DNA of 64,000 bases from Runella slithyformis DSM 19594 (GTDB lineage Bacteria > Bacteroidota > Bacteroidia > Cytophagales > Spirosomataceae). The notes beneath the pieces were generated by a model that saw nothing but the letters and a program-made list of their open reading frames with translations, had not been told where the DNA came from and did no database searches. The stretch spans positions 1,053,501-1,117,500 of the forward strand of contig NC_015703.1 of assembly GCF_000218895.1 (NCBI RefSeq). The letters run 5' to 3'. The first letter of the stretch is position 1. Each line of letters begins with the position of its first letter. The position numbers were made by a program, and so were the translations under genes. Positions 45,980 through 53,572 of this stretch are shown piece after piece.

Positions 45980-46174
45980 ATGAAAAAAGAAGAATTCGAG
46001 TCATTAGACTGTAAATTATTTGAGCCACTGAATCACTCTGTTCTCAAACAAATTCGTGGGGGAGATTTAACCACAAGTTCCATCTTAACTTACAACATTA
46101 ATTGCCAATGTTCTACAACTGATACTACTAGTAGAGAAGATTCTACTAAAAAGAAGAAAATACCTATTGCGTAG
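45980..46174 (+). CDS. Graspetide-type precursor peptide 1 (GG leader)
   Basis: 64 residues. The leader (1-28) is FESLDCKLFEPLNHSVL then KQIRGG, ending in the double Gly cut by C39 exporters. The core (36 residues) holds TYNINCQC, TTDTTSREDS and a basic tail KKKKIPIA. Thr/Ser plus Asp/Glu in the middle are the residues an ATP-grasp enzyme would join by ester bonds, or amide bonds if Lys is used. It is a close paralogue of the next gene: the leader is strongly conserved and the core varies. This matches the precursor family of grasp-with-spasm loci (GG targeting leader of Bacteroidota). Confidence 0.85.
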   Translation: MKKEEFESLDCKLFEPLNHSVLKQIRGGDLTTSSILTYNINCQCSTTDTTSREDSTKKKKIPIA

Positions 46175-46220: not shown

Positions 46221-46418
46221 ATGAACAAAACAGAATTTGAATCATTAGACTGTAAACTGTTTGAGCCAATCAGCTATTCTGTTCTCAAGCAAATTCGTGG
46301 TGGAGATAGCACTCATACTCCAATGCCAACTTATAACACTAAATGTAAGTGTAATATTGATGATGGATATACAACACAAGATCCATCTAAGAAAAAGAAG
46401 AGACCTAATATAGCTTAA
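46221..46418 (+). CDS. Graspetide-type precursor peptide 2 (GG leader)
   Basis: 65 residues. Leader FESLDCKLFEPISYSVL then KQIRGG is nearly identical to peptide 1. The core (37 residues) shares only TYN-x2-CxC, TT, SKKKK and a final IA, and carries different spacing of acidic residues (NIDDGYTTQDPS). High leader and low core conservation means both are probably handled by the same enzymes and give two products. It ends four bases before a strong hairpin terminator that separates precursor and enzyme genes. Confidence 0.85.
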   Translation: MNKTEFESLDCKLFEPISYSVLKQIRGGDSTHTPMPTYNTKCKCNIDDGYTTQDPSKKKKRPNIA

Positions 46419-46499: not shown

Positions 46500-46922
46500 A
46501 TGGTAGTTATATTAACACATCATTCAGATCAAACAAGCAATATAATAATTGATTGGTTGTATGCAAAAAATATAGAATTTTATCGGGTAAATATAGAAGA
46601 CTTTCTTAGCACAAATAATACATTTTATTTATCAAAAAATGGAAAGAAAAATATCTCAATTACTCTGTCTTATAATAAAGTAGTTGAGACACTAAAAAAT
46701 AATGACAAAATCGTATTTTGGTTTAGAAAATGGAGTAACCCTTCTGTTTTAGAAAAGCATTACAAAACAGACACTTTAGAACACCAAGTTGGTGAATTTA
46801 TAGAAAATGAAATTGAAGAGTACCAAAAGTTGTTTTTTGCAGATTTTAAAAATTCTCAATGGTTAAATAATTTAAGTGTACTTGACTTAAAGAAATTTAA
46901 TCTATTATTGATGGGTGAATAG
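46500..46922 (+). pseudogene. gwsG: gwsG-like ATP-grasp ligase, N-terminal fragment (interrupted)
   Basis: The first 136 codons (46500-46907) encode the N-terminal domain of a grasp-with-spasm ATP-grasp ligase: MVVILTHHSDQTSNIIIDWLYAKNIEFYRVNIEDF, and later IVFWFRKWSNPS. After LDLKKFNLL the frame runs into an IS630-type element and stops at 46922. The rest of the enzyme resumes at 47975. As it stands the fragment lacks the ATP-binding core and cannot form ester bonds on the precursors. Joining 46907 to 47975 gives an uninterrupted protein of about 332 residues. Confidence 0.88.
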
Positions 46923-46948
46923 GTTTGTAAAGTTTGTAAATTGCATTT

Positions 46949-47425
46949 ATGAAAGCAAAATACAAACCATCAGATTACGAAATACTACGTCGCCGCTGCG
47001 TGGAGTTGAAAGAAGCGGGTTGGAAGCAGAAGGACATCACCTCGGCTCTTGGACTGACCGAGGGCTGGGTAAGCCAGACGCTGAAAAAGTATCGGGAGTT
47101 GGGGGCGGAAGGCTTGCTGGCCCGAAAGCCGCCAGGTTCGTTGCCTAAACTGACGTCAGAACAGCTTTCGCAGCTTGTCGAAGAGCTTAAACAAGGTGCT
47201 GTCAGCCACGGTTTTCCCGGCCACATCTGGACACGCTCTCGTGTCAACGAGTTGATTGGCAGGCTATTCGGTGTCAGCTACGACCTAACGCAGGTGGGGC
47301 GTATCCTAAAAAAACTGGGATGGAGCTTGCAGAAGCCCGCCAAAAAGGCTCGCCAGCAGAGCAAGCAGAAAGTCCAGCAGTGGCGGGAAGAGACGGTACC
47401 GGAATTAAAAAAAAGCCGAGGATGA
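46949..47425 (+). CDS. IS630 transposase, first frame (DNA-binding part)
   Basis: 158 residues with two helix-turn-helix units: VELKEAGWKQKDITSALGLTEGWVSQTLKKYRE (about 15-50) and a winged-helix segment HIWTRSRVNELIGRLFGVSYDLTQVGRILKKLGW (about 95-130). The frame ends ...ELKKSRG just after a run of eight A (47407-47414). The next frame continues as ...AEDENRAIVYIDESGF, so the catalytic part needs a +1 (or -2) shift, or loss of one A by slippage. Confidence 0.85.
   Translation: MKAKYKPSDYEILRRRCVELKEAGWKQKDITSALGLTEGWVSQTLKKYRELGAEGLLARKPPGSLPKLTSEQLSQLVEELKQGAVSHGFPGHIWTRSRVNELIGRLFGVSYDLTQVGRILKKLGWSLQKPAKKARQQSKQKVQQWREETVPELKKSRG
47407..47414 (+). promoter_or_regulatory. A8 slippage site in the transposase
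   Basis: Eight A after GGAATT. Seven A would give one continuous transposase (ELKK then AEDEN). Runs of this kind cause ribosomal or polymerase slippage in many insertion sequences. The needed change is unusual (+1 or -2 for ribosomes), which favours transcript slippage or a mutation. Confidence 0.5.
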
Positions 47426-47960
47426 GAACCGTGCTATCGTATATATCGATGAATCAGGCTTCTATCTGCTCCCCCTCGTTTGCCGTACGTGGGCACCCAA
47501 GGGTAAAACGCCCATTATCGAGGAGAAGGCGGGCAAAGAACACCTCAGTCTGATCGCCGCGATGGCCCCTAATGGGAGGCTGTACGTCGGCGGACAAGAC
47601 AAGGCATACAATAGTGAGGGGGTGGTTGACTTTCTGGAGTACCTATGCCGCAGGTACCGCAGCAAGGACTTGATCGTGATCTGGGATGGCGCGACCATCC
47701 ACCGTAGCCAAGCCATAAAGGACTTTTTGGCGCGCAAGAAAGGGCGCGTGCACCTTGTGGCCCTGCCTGGTTATAGCCCGGAACTGAACCCGGTCGAGTT
47801 GCTGTGGAGTCAGTTAAAAAGAGAGCTCAAAAACCGGGTATTCCTCGACCTGACAGATTTGGCCGAAGTGTTGAAAGAAAAAATTGAGGAGGTCAGAAAA
47901 GACACGGAATTGCTGGTTTCATTCTTTAAAAAGAAGGAAGTAGCTTTCTTTACAGGATAA
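47409..47960 (+). CDS. IS630 transposase, second frame (DDE catalytic part)
   Basis: Frame open from 47409. It carries the DDE catalytic triad: first Asp in AIVYIDESGFY, second Asp in IVIWDGATIHRS, and Glu in NPVELLWSQLKRELKNR, preceded by the LPGYSPELNP signature of the IS630 family. It has no convincing start of its own before the first Asp, so it is made as a fusion through frameshifting at the A8 run, or the element is dead if the shift is a mutation. Confidence 0.82.
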   Translation, partial: KKAEDENRAIVYIDESGFYLLPLVCRTWAPKGKTPIIEEKAGKEHLSLIAAMAPNGRLYVGGQDKAYNSEGVVDFLEYLCRRYRSKDLIVIWDGATIHRSQAIKDFLARKKGRVHLVALPGYSPELNPVELLWSQLKRELKNRVFLDLTDLAEVLKEKIEEVRKDTELLVSFFKKKEVAFFTG

Positions 47961-47974
47961 TTCATCTATCAATA

Positions 47975-48565
47975 TCTGAAGCAGCAAATGCTGGATTGAG
48001 AATTCCAATGACAATTGTAACTACAAATAAAAATGACCTATTATTATTTAAAAAGGAAGCAGGGACTATTATTACAAAACCGATAGTTGACACTCGGTTT
48101 TTTTATCACAAAAAAAGGACATATGCCTTGTACACTTCTACAATGAGTGACTTAGATATTGAAAATTTGCCAAATTTGTTTTTACCTACACTATTTCAAG
48201 AGTATGTTGAAAAGAAATATGAAATAAGGACGTTCATGTTAGGTGAAACTTTTTTTTCAATGGCTATCTTTTCGCAAAACAATAATAAAACAAAAGTTGA
48301 TTTTAGAGAGTATGATAACGAAGCTCCTAATAGAAATGTCCCATATATATTACCTAAATATATTGAAAAATTACTTTTAAAATTTAGCAAAAAAGTTGGT
48401 TTAAATTCTGGCTCTTTCGATTTAATAAAAACCATTGATGATAATTATGTGTTTTTAGAAGTAAACCCTGCAGGCCAATTTGGTATGGTCTCATATCCTT
48501 GTAATTATTTTTTAGAAGAAAAAATTGCCAATTATCTAATCAATCTTATTCCTATCTATGGATGA
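47975..48565 (+). pseudogene. gwsG: gwsG-like ATP-grasp ligase, C-terminal fragment
   Basis: 196 residues beginning SEAANAGLRIPMTIVTTNK, the usual continuation of the first fragment (GLxIPxT is conserved). The ATP-grasp core follows: EAGTIITKPIV with the ATP-binding Lys, FQEYVEKKYEIRTFMLGE, then SGSFDLIKTIDDNYVFLEVNPAGQFGMVSYPCNYFLEEKIANYL, where the D and ExN metal ligands lie. No good start codon or promoter is evident, so it is probably not made as an active enzyme. It ends ATGGATGA, overlapping the start of the next small gene. Confidence 0.88.
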
Positions 48566-48764
48566 TTTTTTTAATACTGCTAAAAAGTCAATTGCTCATA
48601 AATCTCCTATCTTAGATAAGGTCAAAGGGATTGACTTAGATAATGATGATTCTGAAGATAGAATTATTGGCTTCTCTGAATCTTTACTTTATAATTCTAA
48701 AGAAGTACTCTGTTTTAATTTTTATAAACATATCACACGTGTAATAGATAAGTATGACTTTTAA
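48558..48764 (+). CDS. Small unrecognised protein between ATP-grasp and SPASM genes
   Basis: 68 residues, acidic in the middle (GIDLDNDDSEDRIIGF) and with a C-terminal helix SLLYNSKEVLCFNFYKHITRVIDKYDF. The start overlaps the ATP-grasp stop and its end overlaps the SPASM gene start by 11 bases, so it is translationally coupled on both sides. I do not know a family. It could be a partner or chaperone for the maturases, or a scaffold for leader binding; there is no direct evidence. Confidence 0.55.
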   Translation: MDDFFNTAKKSIAHKSPILDKVKGIDLDNDDSEDRIIGFSESLLYNSKEVLCFNFYKHITRVIDKYDF

Positions 48765-49791
48765 ATTATTTTCATGTTGCATCCCTGTCAGAGGAGCTTT
48801 AAGAAGTACAATTTGTGATGTTCAAAGAAGAACGTTTAGCTTTATACCTAACAAATTGCATGAATTATTAATAGATTATAAAGACAAAGATATAGATTTT
48901 ATAAAAAAACATTTTAACAATGAGTATGACAAACAAATAGAAGAATATTATGATTTCTTACTAAAAAAAGAGTATGTTTTTGCATGTGATAATCCAGAGC
49001 AATTTCCATCAATTGAAATGATTTGGAAAATTCCTTCTGTAATTACTAATGCAGTTATTGACTTTAGTAAGTATTCTAATCACGATATTGTTAAAATTTC
49101 TAAAGAATTAGAGGCTTTAGGATGTTTAGCTATCCAGTTTAGGTTTTATGATCTAGTGGAAATAGACGAAATTCAAAATATTTTACAATTATTTAACTTA
49201 AGCCGTATTCACGATATTCAAATTTTAATGAAGAGTAGTTACAAACAATCCTTTCGAGATTTAGAAAAATTATGCCTTATTAATACAAGAGTATCAATCA
49301 TAATAGTACATTCCAACAAATATAATAAGAAGAAGCAGGCGCGAAATTGCAAAACTCCAATACTATTTATTAAAACCAATATTACCAATCATTCTTTTTG
49401 TGGTTTTGTAAACTATAATCATTTCGTTGTTAATATAACTCATTTCACCGAATCCCAAAAACACAATACTTGCCTAAATCGCAAAATTTCGATAGATACC
49501 GAGGGTAATATCAAAAACTGCCCTTCTATGAGCAAAAGCTATGGCAATATACGTGATACTACACTGCGCGAGGCTATTGAAAAACAAGGATTTAAAGATG
49601 TATGGTATATCCACAAAGACCAAATAGAAATCTGTAAAGATTGTGAGTTTCGGCATATCTGTACCGATTGCAGAGCCTATATACAAGATCCCAACAACAT
49701 TTACTCCAAACCTGCCAAATGCAGCTACAACCCCTACACGGCTACTTGGGGCGAAGATAATCCTACTAACAATCCGTTGCATGGTAAATGA
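48754..49791 (+). CDS. gwsS: Grasp-with-spasm system SPASM-domain peptide maturase
   Basis: 345 residues. The C-terminal SPASM domain is clear: CLNRKISIDTEGNIKNCPSM, then CKDCEFRHICTDCRAYI and KCSYNPY, seven Cys placed to hold auxiliary Fe-S clusters. The N-terminal half has a TIM-barrel-like pattern (VITNAVIDFSKYSNHDIVKISKELEALG) but no CxxxCxxC radical SAM motif; only Cys8/Cys9 and Cys21 occur near the start. It therefore may not be a true radical enzyme. Its stop TGA overlaps the ATG of the corrupted exporter start (ATGA). Confidence 0.85.
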   Translation: MTFKLFSCCIPVRGALRSTICDVQRRTFSFIPNKLHELLIDYKDKDIDFIKKHFNNEYDKQIEEYYDFLLKKEYVFACDNPEQFPSIEMIWKIPSVITNAVIDFSKYSNHDIVKISKELEALGCLAIQFRFYDLVEIDEIQNILQLFNLSRIHDIQILMKSSYKQSFRDLEKLCLINTRVSIIIVHSNKYNKKKQARNCKTPILFIKTNITNHSFCGFVNYNHFVVNITHFTESQKHNTCLNRKISIDTEGNIKNCPSMSKSYGNIRDTTLREAIEKQGFKDVWYIHKDQIEICKDCEFRHICTDCRAYIQDPNNIYSKPAKCSYNPYTATWGEDNPTNNPLHGK

Positions 49792-49901
49792 GTAAATTCC
49801 CTTTCTACCATCAACTCGACACCATCGTCGAAACGTCGAACCGCAGGAACGCCTGCCCGGTGCGGGCCTACGTGTCTGCGTATGATAGCCAAAATGTATG
49901 A
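49788..49901 (+). pseudogene. Corrupted duplicate of the exporter 5' end
   Basis: A 37-codon ORF beginning MSKFPFYHQLDTI, the same as the true exporter start. The segment encoding the catalytic DCGPT is replaced by about 45 bases of GC-rich DNA (from CGTCGAAACG to GGCCTA). The sequence then rejoins at CGTGTCTGCGTATGATAGCC, shared with the real gene but in another frame. The ORF stops at 49901, overlapping the next ATG. It retains the coupling to the SPASM gene. The two copies also differ at synonymous positions, so the duplication is not brand new. Confidence 0.75.
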
Positions 49902-52252
49902 TGAGTAAATTCCCTTTCTACCATCAACTTGACACTATGGACTGTGGGCCGACGTGCTTGCGTATGATAGCCAAGTATCATGGTGTGTCGCATAGCCTTC
50001 AATCGCTTCGACAACTTACCGAAATTGGTAAAGATGGGGTAAATCTACTGGGTATTGTCCAAGCTGCCGAGCACATTGGGTTTAGGACATTGGCCGTTAA
50101 AGTGTCGCTCAAACAGCTATTGGCAGATGCCCCCCTGCCGTGTATTGTTCATTGGCAGCAGAATCATTTTGTGGTGGTAGCCCCCAACCCGCGCGGCTTA
50201 CTGTCCCGATGGGGGAGTTACTTGTTTCGTAAAAAATCCCCCATTGGGGGCAAGGGGGCTGGGCTTTTAGTCGCAGACCCTGCCAAAGGGTTGCTCACTT
50301 ACACCCAAGCAGAGTTTGAATCGGCTTGGGCTACCTCAGTAGAAAATAACGAAAAAGTGGGTATTGCGCTGCTGTTGGAGCCTACGCCACGTTTTTTTGA
50401 AGAAGATGAAAGAAAAGGGCAAGGAGCGAACACCTTAGGGATAGGAACTTTATTTGGTTATGTATTACGGTACAAAAAATTGTTGGCGCAGTTAGGTTTA
50501 GGGCTGTTAGTAGGAAGCGTGCTGCAGTTAGTATTACCTTTTCTGACCCAGTCGGTGGTTGATACGGGTATTCCTACGCACAACCTGCACTTTATTTATC
50601 TTGTATTGGCCGCGCAACTCATGCTTTTTATAGGACGGTTGTCGGTAGATTTTATTCGGGCATGGATTCTGATGCACATCAGTACTCGTATCAATCTCAG
50701 TATTTTATCTGATTTTTTAGCCAAATTGTTACGCTTACCCATTTCGTTTTTGGACAGTAAACAAACGGGCGATATTCTCCAGCGCATCGGCGACCACAGT
50801 CGTATTGAAAGTTTTTTAACAGGAACATCGCTCAACGCCCTCTTTTCGGTACTTACGTTGGTTGTTTATGGAGGTGTGTTATTGGCATATCATACTGCCA
50901 TTTTCGGGGTGTTTCTACTGTTTAGTGTGCTGTATGTCGCTTGGATTGTACTGTTTTTAAAATACCGAAGGCAATTAGACCACAAACGCTTTGCACTCGC
51001 TTCGCAAAACCAAAGCAGCCTGATACAACTTATTACGGGGCTACAGGAAATCAAAATGAACAACGCCGAACACCTCAAGCGTTGGCAATGGGAAAACCTC
51101 CAAGTAAGACAGTTTAAATTGAGTATGAAAGGGTTGGCTATTGGTCAATACCAACAGGCAGGAGCGATGTTTCTCAATGAAGGCAAAAACATCATCATTA
51201 CATTTATGGCCGCTACTGCCGTCGTCAATGGGCAACTTACATTGGGGGGAATGATGGCATTACAGTACATTGTAGGGCAACTAAACAGCCCCGTAGAACA
51301 GATGATTCAGTTTGTTCAACATTGGCAAGATGCCAAAATAAGTTTAGAGCGATTGAATGAGATACATGAGGTGGAAGATGAAAGCCCCCCAACCCCCGAT
51401 GGGGTAGTAAAAATTATCCCCCCATTGGGGGCTGGGGACGGTATACCGCGCGGGCTGTTTTTGCAAAACTTATCTTTCACCTACCCAGGAGCAGGCAATG
51501 AACCTGTGTTAAGAGACATTAATCTGTTTATACCCGCAGGGAAAATAACAGCCATAGTGGGTACAAGCGGGAGCGGAAAAACGACACTTTTAAAGTTATT
51601 ACTTCGATTTTACCCTATTCAAAAAGGAGAAATTCGACTCACCTCCCTCATAGGGTCGGACCCGCAGCGGCGGGCCGTGTCGACGGAGGGGCAGGGGGTG
51701 GGGTTAAACACAATTTCTCACCGATATTGGAGAAGTCAATGTGGAACGGTGCTACAAGATGGGTTTATTTTCTCTGATTCGATTGCCAACAATATCGCTG
51801 TGGGCGATGAGATACCCAATGTATCTAAACTTTTTCACGCAGCCAAAGTTGCTAATATCCAATCCTTTATCGAATCGCTTCCATTAGGTTATAACACTAA
51901 AATTGGGGCAGAAGGCAATGGTATCAGTCAAGGTCAACGCCAACGACTGCTCATTGCACGGGCAGTGTACAAAGACCCCGCTTTTTTGTTTTTTGATGAA
52001 GCTACGAATGCCCTTGATGCCAACAACGAGCGAGTGATTATGGAAAATTTGGAAACATTTTTTAAAGACGGTCCAATGGGTCAGCGAACGGTCGTCGTTG
52101 TGGCACATCGCCTGAGTACGGTCAAAAATGCTGACCAAATTGTGGTGATGGAAAATGGAAAAATCGTCGAACTCGGAACTCATGCACAACTCACAGAATA
52201 CCAAGGCAAATACTACGAATTGGTAAAGAATCAACTCGAATTAGGCAATTAA
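49901..52252 (+). CDS. C39 peptidase-containing ABC exporter (leader-processing)
   Basis: 783 residues. C39 protease (1-140): catalytic Cys in MDCGPTCLRM, His in HWQQNHFVVV, Asp in VADPAKGLLTY. Membrane domain about 160-440. ATPase: Walker A GTSGSGKTTLLKLLL, signature ISQGQRQRLLIARA, Walker B FLFFDEATNALD. It should cut precursors after GG and export the cores. Three stretches are extra: SPIGGKGAGLL near residue 112, SPPTPDGVVKIIPPLGAG near 495, and TSLIGSDPQRRAVSTEGQG near 580. All are encoded by GC-rich hairpin repeats inserted in frame. The last lies inside the ATPase and may impair it. ATG 49898 is an alternative start. Confidence 0.92.
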   Translation: MSKFPFYHQLDTMDCGPTCLRMIAKYHGVSHSLQSLRQLTEIGKDGVNLLGIVQAAEHIGFRTLAVKVSLKQLLADAPLPCIVHWQQNHFVVVAPNPRGLLSRWGSYLFRKKSPIGGKGAGLLVADPAKGLLTYTQAEFESAWATSVENNEKVGIALLLEPTPRFFEEDERKGQGANTLGIGTLFGYVLRYKKLLAQLGLGLLVGSVLQLVLPFLTQSVVDTGIPTHNLHFIYLVLAAQLMLFIGRLSVDFIRAWILMHISTRINLSILSDFLAKLLRLPISFLDSKQTGDILQRIGDHSRIESFLTGTSLNALFSVLTLVVYGGVLLAYHTAIFGVFLLFSVLYVAWIVLFLKYRRQLDHKRFALASQNQSSLIQLITGLQEIKMNNAEHLKRWQWENLQVRQFKLSMKGLAIGQYQQAGAMFLNEGKNIIITFMAATAVVNGQLTLGGMMALQYIVGQLNSPVEQMIQFVQHWQDAKISLERLNEIHEVEDESPPTPDGVVKIIPPLGAGDGIPRGLFLQNLSFTYPGAGNEPVLRDINLFIPAGKITAIVGTSGSGKTTLLKLLLRFYPIQKGEIRLTSLIGSDPQRRAVSTEGQGVGLNTISHRYWRSQCGTVLQDGFIFSDSIANNIAVGDEIPNVSKLFHAAKVANIQSFIESLPLGYNTKIGAEGNGISQGQRQRLLIARAVYKDPAFLFFDEATNALDANNERVIMENLETFFKDGPMGQRTVVVVAHRLSTVKNADQIVVMENGKIVELGTHAQLTEYQGKYYELVKNQLELGN
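50237..50263. repeat. GC-rich repeat inserted in the exporter gene (1)
   Basis: TCCCCCATTGGGGGC followed by AAGGGGGCTGGG. It is placed between the C39 His and Asp motifs and translated as SPIGGKGAG. It shares the core CCCCCATTGGGGGC with the copy at 51417. Confidence 0.7.
51383..51438. repeat. GC-rich inverted repeat pair inserted in the exporter gene (2)
   Basis: AGCCCCCCAACCCCCGATGG... (51383-51404) and TCCCCCCATTGGGGGCTGGG... (51417-51438) are imperfect inverted copies around a 12-base AT-rich spacer. The whole is read in frame between the membrane and ATPase domains, where extra residues are tolerated. Confidence 0.7.
51641..51706. repeat. GC-rich insertion in the ATPase region of the exporter gene (3)
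   Basis: A GC-rich stretch (CACCTCCCTCATAGGGTCGG onward, with the hairpin CCCGC-agc-GGCGGG) encodes TSLIGSDPQRRAVSTEGQGVGL where related exporters have only a few residues between GEIRL and the ISHRYWR strand. Same phase, no stop. Unlike copies 1 and 2 it lacks the CCCCATTGGGG core, so it may be another element type. Confidence 0.6.
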
Positions 52253-52258
52253 CTAACC

Positions 52259-53572
52259 ATGCCAAATCAGATTTCTACTTCCACTAATGGGCAAGCTACT
52301 TCCCAAGACCAACTACGTAGTAGCGAGGTGGATGAAGTATTAAGCCAGCCGCCTTCATGGTTGATTCAATGGGGCATTACGGTTGTCTTTTTAGTGGTAG
52401 GGACTTTGGTAGCTGTAGGCTGGTTCATTCATTATCCCGACATTGTCACGGGGCATTTACGCATTGTAGGCGACAACTATCCCAAATCAGTATCGTCCAA
52501 AACAGATGGCAAACTGCTAAAGTTATTGGTCAAAGATGAACAGTTGGTAGCCCAAGGACAGCACCTTGCTTATATGGAAAGCACTGCCAACATCGAAGAA
52601 GTACTTTCGTTAGCAAAAGTGCTTGATTCACTCCTTGTAAATACCTCACTACAAAACTTGAGCAAACTGTATGGCATTTTTATGCCCTTCTATTTTCAGT
52701 TGGGCGAACTGCAAAAATCTTTTCAAACCTTCCAAGAACAATACATTAGAGCCAAAGCCTTACTCAAAGGTAGTACATTTGACCAAAAACAAGCCGCACT
52801 GCAAAATGATTTACAGCAATTGGCTTTGCTCGAAAGCAATCTCAATACCCAGATAATCAACTATCAAAACGACTTGAATTTAGCAGAGGCCGACCTACAG
52901 ATGAACCAAAAACTACACAAAGAAAAAGTAGTGGCAGACGTGGAAGTGCGACGTTCGCAAAGTGTGTTTATTTCAAAAAAACAAATTTTTGACCAAGCCC
53001 AGACCGCATTTAATAACAACGGAATGGCACAAAACCAGAAGAAGCAAGAGTTGATAGAATTGACGAAAGTACGAACCGAATTACAAAATAGCTTATTTCA
53101 GGCATTGACTACCCTTAAAAGCGATATAGAAGCGTGGAAGCAGCGTTATGTGTTAAGTGCGCCTGTGCAGGGGAAAGTTTCGTTTATTACCCCTATTCAA
53201 GAAGGTACTACATTAAAAAATGGTCAAGAATTGTTTTATATAGTTTCACAAAAAACAGGCTTTCACGGTGAAATGATAATAGGTCAGTATAATTTTGGCA
53301 AAGTAAAACCACGCCAAGAGGTCATTATTAAACTTCCAAGCTATCCTTTCCAAGAATTTGGCGCATTAAAAGGGCAAGTCGCCTCCATTGCCGAATTACC
53401 AAGAGACAGCACCTATCTGATTCACGTTTCCTTTCCAAAAGGACTTATTACCTCCTCCCATAAACAAATTCCGTTCCGTAACGGCATGACGGCCAGCGGT
53501 GAAATCATTACTGAAGATGTAAGGCTTATTGAGCGGCTATTTTACAATTTTAAACGAGGAATATCAAGATAA
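52259..53572 (+). CDS. HlyD-family adaptor of the peptide exporter
   Basis: 437 residues starting six bases after the exporter stop. A single N-terminal membrane helix (ITVVFLVVGTLVAVGWFIHYPDIV) is followed by lipoyl half 1 (YPKSVSSKTDGKLLKLLVKDEQLVAQGQHLAYME), a long coiled coil at about 120-300, then lipoyl half 2 (VLSAPVQGKVSFITPIQEGTTLKNGQELFYI) and a beta domain. It completes a type I-like export route for the mature peptides. No outer membrane channel gene is in this locus; the TolC-like protein at 5.1 kb or another could serve. Confidence 0.9.
   Translation: MPNQISTSTNGQATSQDQLRSSEVDEVLSQPPSWLIQWGITVVFLVVGTLVAVGWFIHYPDIVTGHLRIVGDNYPKSVSSKTDGKLLKLLVKDEQLVAQGQHLAYMESTANIEEVLSLAKVLDSLLVNTSLQNLSKLYGIFMPFYFQLGELQKSFQTFQEQYIRAKALLKGSTFDQKQAALQNDLQQLALLESNLNTQIINYQNDLNLAEADLQMNQKLHKEKVVADVEVRRSQSVFISKKQIFDQAQTAFNNNGMAQNQKKQELIELTKVRTELQNSLFQALTTLKSDIEAWKQRYVLSAPVQGKVSFITPIQEGTTLKNGQELFYIVSQKTGFHGEMIIGQYNFGKVKPRQEVIIKLPSYPFQEFGALKGQVASIAELPRDSTYLIHVSFPKGLITSSHKQIPFRNGMTASGEIITEDVRLIERLFYNFKRGISR

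Follow-up and report, generated by a model that had tools for sequence, protein, structure and literature searches.

An IS630-family element splits the grasp-with-spasm ligase gene of a graspetide locus in Runella slithyformis

Within the window (the whole stretch of 64,000 nucleotides of Runella slithyformis DSM 19594 that was analysed), a run of genes on the forward (+) strand makes up a graspetide locus. It begins with two candidate precursor genes, encoding 64 aa (45980..46174) and 65 aa (46221..46418), each with a leader that ends in IRGG and is followed by T/S and D residues in the core; we infer that these two GG-leader ORFs are the ligase substrates. The ATP-grasp ligase gene follows in two parts, a 5′ part of 136 codons (46500..46907) and a 3′ part of 196 codons plus stop (47975..48565), and between them lies an IS630-family element of 1065 bp (46908..47972) on the same strand, with one copy of its TA target site to the left (46906..46907) and one to the right (47973..47974). 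Downstream come a small ORF (48558..48764), a SPASM_w_grasp protein of 345 aa (48754..49791; TIGR04193, 347.1 bits against a cut-off of 175) and a 784-aa peptidase-ABC peptide exporter (49898..52252), which matches type I secretion and bacteriocin ABC models with scores all below their cut-offs among the 25 matches listed. The last gene (52259..53572; 437 aa) is presumably a HlyD-like export partner, a name that we take from its position; its homologue adjoins the ABC gene in related loci. An earlier note on this DNA had described both precursors and the exporter as largely intact, and indeed the two GG-leader ORFs and the SPASM, ABC and HlyD-like genes are all single open frames. At 49788-49901, part of the ABC gene's start is present in duplicate, together with a short insert of unrelated sequence; the first copy leads to a 37-aa dead end, and the second begins the full gene. 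At E ≤ 0.001, the genome contained no match to the segment other than this duplicate.

The arrangement resembles the branch 5 graspetide locus layout of Bacteroidetes (TIGR04192 plus TIGR04193), as set out in the accessible portion of PMC8939145. Shared with the loci described there are the ATP-grasp ligase, a small protein encoded 5′ of SPASM, the SPASM protein itself, GG-leader precursors upstream and export genes. Unlike those loci, the Runella locus has a ligase gene interrupted by an insertion sequence, precursors without a significant NCBIfam or Pfam match, and a small protein that takes the position of the LPL-family protein but carries no LPL motif in its sequence and had no NCBIfam match. 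Among the matches listed in our literature search, none named Runella slithyformis together with graspetides.

As found, the 5′ frame of the ligase runs into the element and reaches a stop at 46920-46922 after 140 aa, while the earliest in-frame start codons of the 3′ part are a TTG at 47996 and an ATG at 48008. Removal of the element and one TA copy joined 46500-46907 to 47975-48565 in frame, as the earlier note had proposed, and the read-through computed across this empty site comprised 332 codons plus stop, the length of about 332 residues given there. In a profile search, the read-through matched TIGR04192 over its full length (254.9 bits, positions 1-318 of 318), above the curated cut-off of 230 bits; the 5′ half (140 aa; 21.2 bits, profile positions 1-128) and the 3′ half taken from the TTG (213.4 bits, positions 140-318) each fell below it. 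The 5′ part also scored 24.2 bits against the pre-ATP-grasp domain PF21068, under the cut-off of 27 for that model. The end-to-end alignment that had been suggested as a check was likewise obtained with real relatives: residues 1-326 of the 332 aligned to two intact Runella ligases, and tblastn aligned the read-through from residue 1 to residues 324-326 with intact genes in five related genomes at 32-40% identity. Of the alignment columns, 30 are conserved in 90% or more of 26 intact ligases, and the read-through agreed at all 30, so no damage beyond the insertion was seen at these conserved sites. Among ligases of known structure (MdnC and MdnB of microviridin synthesis and CdnC of Chryseobacterium; PDB 5ig9, 5ig8 and 7mgv), it aligned over residues 2-325 to MdnB, 2-308 to CdnC and 136-327 to MdnC; the microviridin subfamily differs, the read-through reaching 141.1 bits for MvdC and 127.8 bits for MvdD against cut-offs of 425 and 475. 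We thus confirmed that a grasp-with-spasm ligase gene of the TIGR04192 family is split by an IS630-family element. The 5′ part had no DNA match in the 12 other genomes of the genus, and the split gene had no near match in a phage collection.

We then considered whether the two halves could be functional as they stand. A profile of six ligases, five of them intact and the sixth the read-through itself, was searched against 47 loci (L026-L072), of which 41 remained after setting aside four without a ligase match (L068, L070, L071 and L072) and two from Runella. The ligase was one open frame in 39 of these 41 loci, and the two that were split consisted of overlapping pieces in different frames, as a frameshift would produce. 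Because of this prevalence of the single-frame form, and since the halves are separated by a transposable element, we rejected the alternative raised in the earlier note, namely two separate functional genes. A related reading is that of a split enzyme, in which the halves are translated separately, the second from the TTG at 47996 or the ATG at 48008, possibly through coupling to the stop of the transposase at 47960, before assembling into an active ligase. Both halves are open, and complementation between them is conceivable in principle; the TTG follows the transposase stop by 35 bases, and the break, between read-through residues 136 and 137, is near the point where the pre-ATP-grasp domain gives way to the ATP-grasp domain. 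However, when the intact ligase from the Runella limosa locus was modelled with AlphaFold2 (mean pLDDT 88.9; best PDB matches MdnC, CdnC and AMdnB), the equivalent position fell between residues 109 and 110, inside a predicted helix (residues 105-114) that carries an invariant Lys and, in the model, connects the pre-ATP-grasp domain with the ATP-grasp domain; for this reason, a working split enzyme is not favoured. Moreover, the earliest in-frame ATG of the second half is at 48008, the locus counts above provide no two-gene precedent outside Runella, and the openness of the halves is explained equally well by a young insertion. We therefore regard a functional split enzyme as extremely improbable.

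The boundaries of the element (46908-47972) and the TA duplication proved exact as first described. The imperfect terminal inverted repeat, 27 bp including the TA, matches at 20 of 27 positions (18 of 25 after the TA). Searching the genome yielded 15 full copies, the one in the ligase gene included, along with two diverged partials (70% and 64%). All 15 full copies are flanked by TA on both sides, and 10 of them sit at TTAA, compared with 263 of the 3407 TA sites in the window (7.7%; binomial P = 1.6 × 10⁻⁸). Since the element is TA-flanked at 15 different sites, an assembly artefact is an unlikely source of the insertion. Eight of the 15 copies, among them the one in the ligase gene, are identical over the 1065 bp, and the other seven lie one to four single-base events away from it; these differences are single-base indels save for one substitution, at position 20, found in five copies. 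The closest element elsewhere in the genus, in one of the 12 other genomes, is only 74% identical, and a plasmid collection contained no near match. Eight identical copies at different sites imply that the element has recently been active, and the overall pattern points to a recent local burst. With 15 full copies, all at TA and eight of them identical, the insertion into the ligase gene looks young, in keeping with the recent event claimed in the earlier note. This dating draws on the element copies and not on gene divergence, because identity between the read-through and the intact ligases is no higher than 32-40%. In a search of the element flanks, 4 of 10 pieces had no match; open frames that touch four of the copies (L011, L012, L015 and L017) matched a DDE transposase, a PQQ dehydrogenase-cytochrome protein, the specificity subunit of a type I restriction system and an outer-membrane barrel domain.

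Recent activity of the element also bears on the idea of a reversible switch, whereby precise excision at a useful frequency would keep a working allele in part of the population. The frame is restored exactly once the element and one TA are lost, and the eight identical copies make the element look recently active. Nevertheless, exact restoration is expected from any insertion with a TA duplication, and we consider such a switch very unlikely.

The transposase is encoded in two frames. The first, orfA (46949..47425, + strand; 158 aa), carries the helix-turn-helix part (PF13592), and the second, orfB (47409..47960, + strand; 183 codons plus stop), carries the DDE part (PF13358, DDE_3); against the transposase model NF033545, with its cut-off of 100 bits, they scored 95.9 and 93 bits. 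The frames are offset at an A8 tract (47407..47414, + strand), the likely slippage site, which is present in 11 of the 15 copies, the A run ranging from A6 to A8 across copies. The 74%-identical element in another Runella genome has the identical A8 and frame offset; this recurrence makes programmed slippage likelier than decay of the transposase, and a sequencing error or a dead transposase is accordingly an unlikely account of the A8 tract. As indels of a single base account for nearly all of the variation between copies, part of it, including A7 and A6, may reflect sequencing errors. One copy (L020, on a genome contig of 93,527 bases, C5) has A7 and is the sole copy of the 15 with an unbroken transposase frame, giving 336 aa from the orfA start and 245 bits against NF033545 over positions 2-297 of 299. 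It may supply transposase constitutively, or its A7 may be a sequencing difference. According to the accessible portion of PMC5009743, the IS630 family is one of those that use frameshifting, and a Roseiflexus IS630 is an example of transcriptional realignment. The element resembles the frameshifting members of the family in its NF033545 transposase, TA target, terminal repeats and pair of frames offset at a slippery run of A, and nothing about it differs in kind from what that portion describes.

Taken together, it is very probable that a recently amplified IS630-family element transposed into a TA within the ligase gene, and that the ligase was thereby lost with no paralogue of the family to replace it. 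According to this explanation, the ATP-grasp domain would be missing from the 5′ product of 140 aa, and the N-domain from the 3′ product, which could reach no more than 189 aa when started at the TTG. The ligase would therefore be dead, and the two precursors, if made, would stay ring-less; the pathway as a whole would then be switched off. Our search of the genome with TIGR04192 found four pieces only, from two loci, and no intact ligase of this family. At the second locus (C4:2289657-2290585), the ligase comprises two overlapping pieces in different frames, one with one TAG and two TAA codons inside the match, and it reads as a decayed pseudogene broken by a frameshift and stops. Because this is the only other such ligase found, a replacement from within the family is not expected. 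SPASM at the second locus is also in two pieces, while the ABC (766 aa) and HlyD (428 aa) genes are open.

The state of this second locus, in which both ligase and SPASM have decayed further, lends some weight to the view that the first locus was already idle, drifting after selection had been lost, when the element landed. The same holds for a locus in another Runella genome (G010), a remnant in which no ABC gene was found. On the other hand, the other genes of the first locus are open and its ligase bears no further damage at conserved sites. An insertion into an idle locus is possible, if on balance doubtful; it is compatible with transposition of a recently amplified element as the breaking event and differs from it in cause.

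Next, we asked how often the ligase is broken across the genus. Six grasp-with-spasm loci were found in 5 of the 13 Runella genomes, and the ligase is broken in four of the six, each time by a different lesion; the intact ligases are those of G002 and G003. Besides the insertion at locus 1 and the frameshift and stops at locus 2 of our genome, the ligase of G006, a metagenome assembly, carries a TGA and a frameshift, and that of G010, an assembly of 4 contigs, is in three pieces, next to a truncated SPASM gene. A lesion common to G006 and our locus 1 was rejected, because the TGA lies a few codons away from the element site and is accompanied by a frameshift. Outside Runella, the ligase was split in 2 of the 41 loci described above. 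In a class-wide draw of 395 genomes, 41 strong matches outside our own genome reached 157 bits or more, and 3 of them had a stop or split; adding three weaker, broken-looking matches makes this 6 of 44. None of 10 TIGR04192 matches outside the genus, in 8 genomes, had a stop, several of these 10 being other graspetide ligases below the cut-off. Fisher tests gave 0.0012 for 4/6 versus 2/41 and 0.011 for 4/6 versus 6/44, values to be read against small numbers, shared ancestry among the 41 loci (many from Chryseobacterium), one metagenome-assembled genome, loci found by different ways, and two wider samples that are non-independent and may share genomes. The apparently repeated loss of the ligase in Runella is a lead worth pursuing.

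A stronger claim would be that Runella repeatedly silences graspetide synthesis through breakage of the ligase, with parts of the locus surviving for a time. The tally behind it is four lesions at four of the six loci, two of them in one genome. An intact SPASM beside a broken ligase occurs among the Runella loci at our locus 1 and in G006 only, and the ABC frame of G006 stops near the contig end; at our locus 2 and in G010, ligase and SPASM are both damaged, which counts against a story in which the ligase goes first. We hold repeated silencing to be unlikely. Were it true, the cost of the product would recurrently be shed, or the unmodified precursors and retained exporters would still serve the cell.

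In itself, inactivation of a RiPP gene by an insertion sequence is ordinary and of a kind already known; another dead ligase in the same genome and the pattern across the genus make this case somewhat more interesting. If this graspetide cluster were mined as it stands, a product would be improbable, and the integrity of the ligase is to be checked first. A young disruption with open partner genes also offers a natural knockout for the action of SPASM on the precursor without the ligase, and the genus-level pattern makes the costliness of graspetide synthesis testable.

Finally, we examined the SPASM protein, whose family is described as radical SAM in the accessible portion of PMC8939145. We compared the protein from the window with 26 others hand-picked from the loci, L044 being dropped for stops in the stretch taken. 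The radical SAM motif CxxxCxxC was absent from the first 150 residues in all 27 proteins, and the cysteines of the SPASM region were conserved in their alignment. The protein of the window (48754-49791) had no Pfam match at E ≤ 1; its structural model (pLDDT 89.4) had its best, though weak, match in the peptide radical SAM enzyme SuiB (E = 1 × 10⁻⁴, TM 0.35). The protein seems to be a relative of radical SAM enzymes in which the SAM cluster was lost and the auxiliary-cluster domain kept. At the 3′ end of the gene, 49454-49790 shares 85-90% DNA identity with four of the five other Runella loci, the stretch being deleted in the fifth, and around this stripe identity is 38-66% in the 5′ SPASM sequence upstream and about 55-85% in the ABC sequence downstream. 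Such a profile suggests recombination or conversion at the SPASM 3′ end, the cassettes of precursor and ligase upstream of it having been exchanged. A glycosyltransferase-like gene (PF04101, PF00201; 43100-44437) adjoins the grasp-with-spasm genes, and a 38% identical glycosyltransferase-like gene likewise stands beside grasp-with-spasm genes in a related genome (L099:12924-14288); a glycosylated product is possible.
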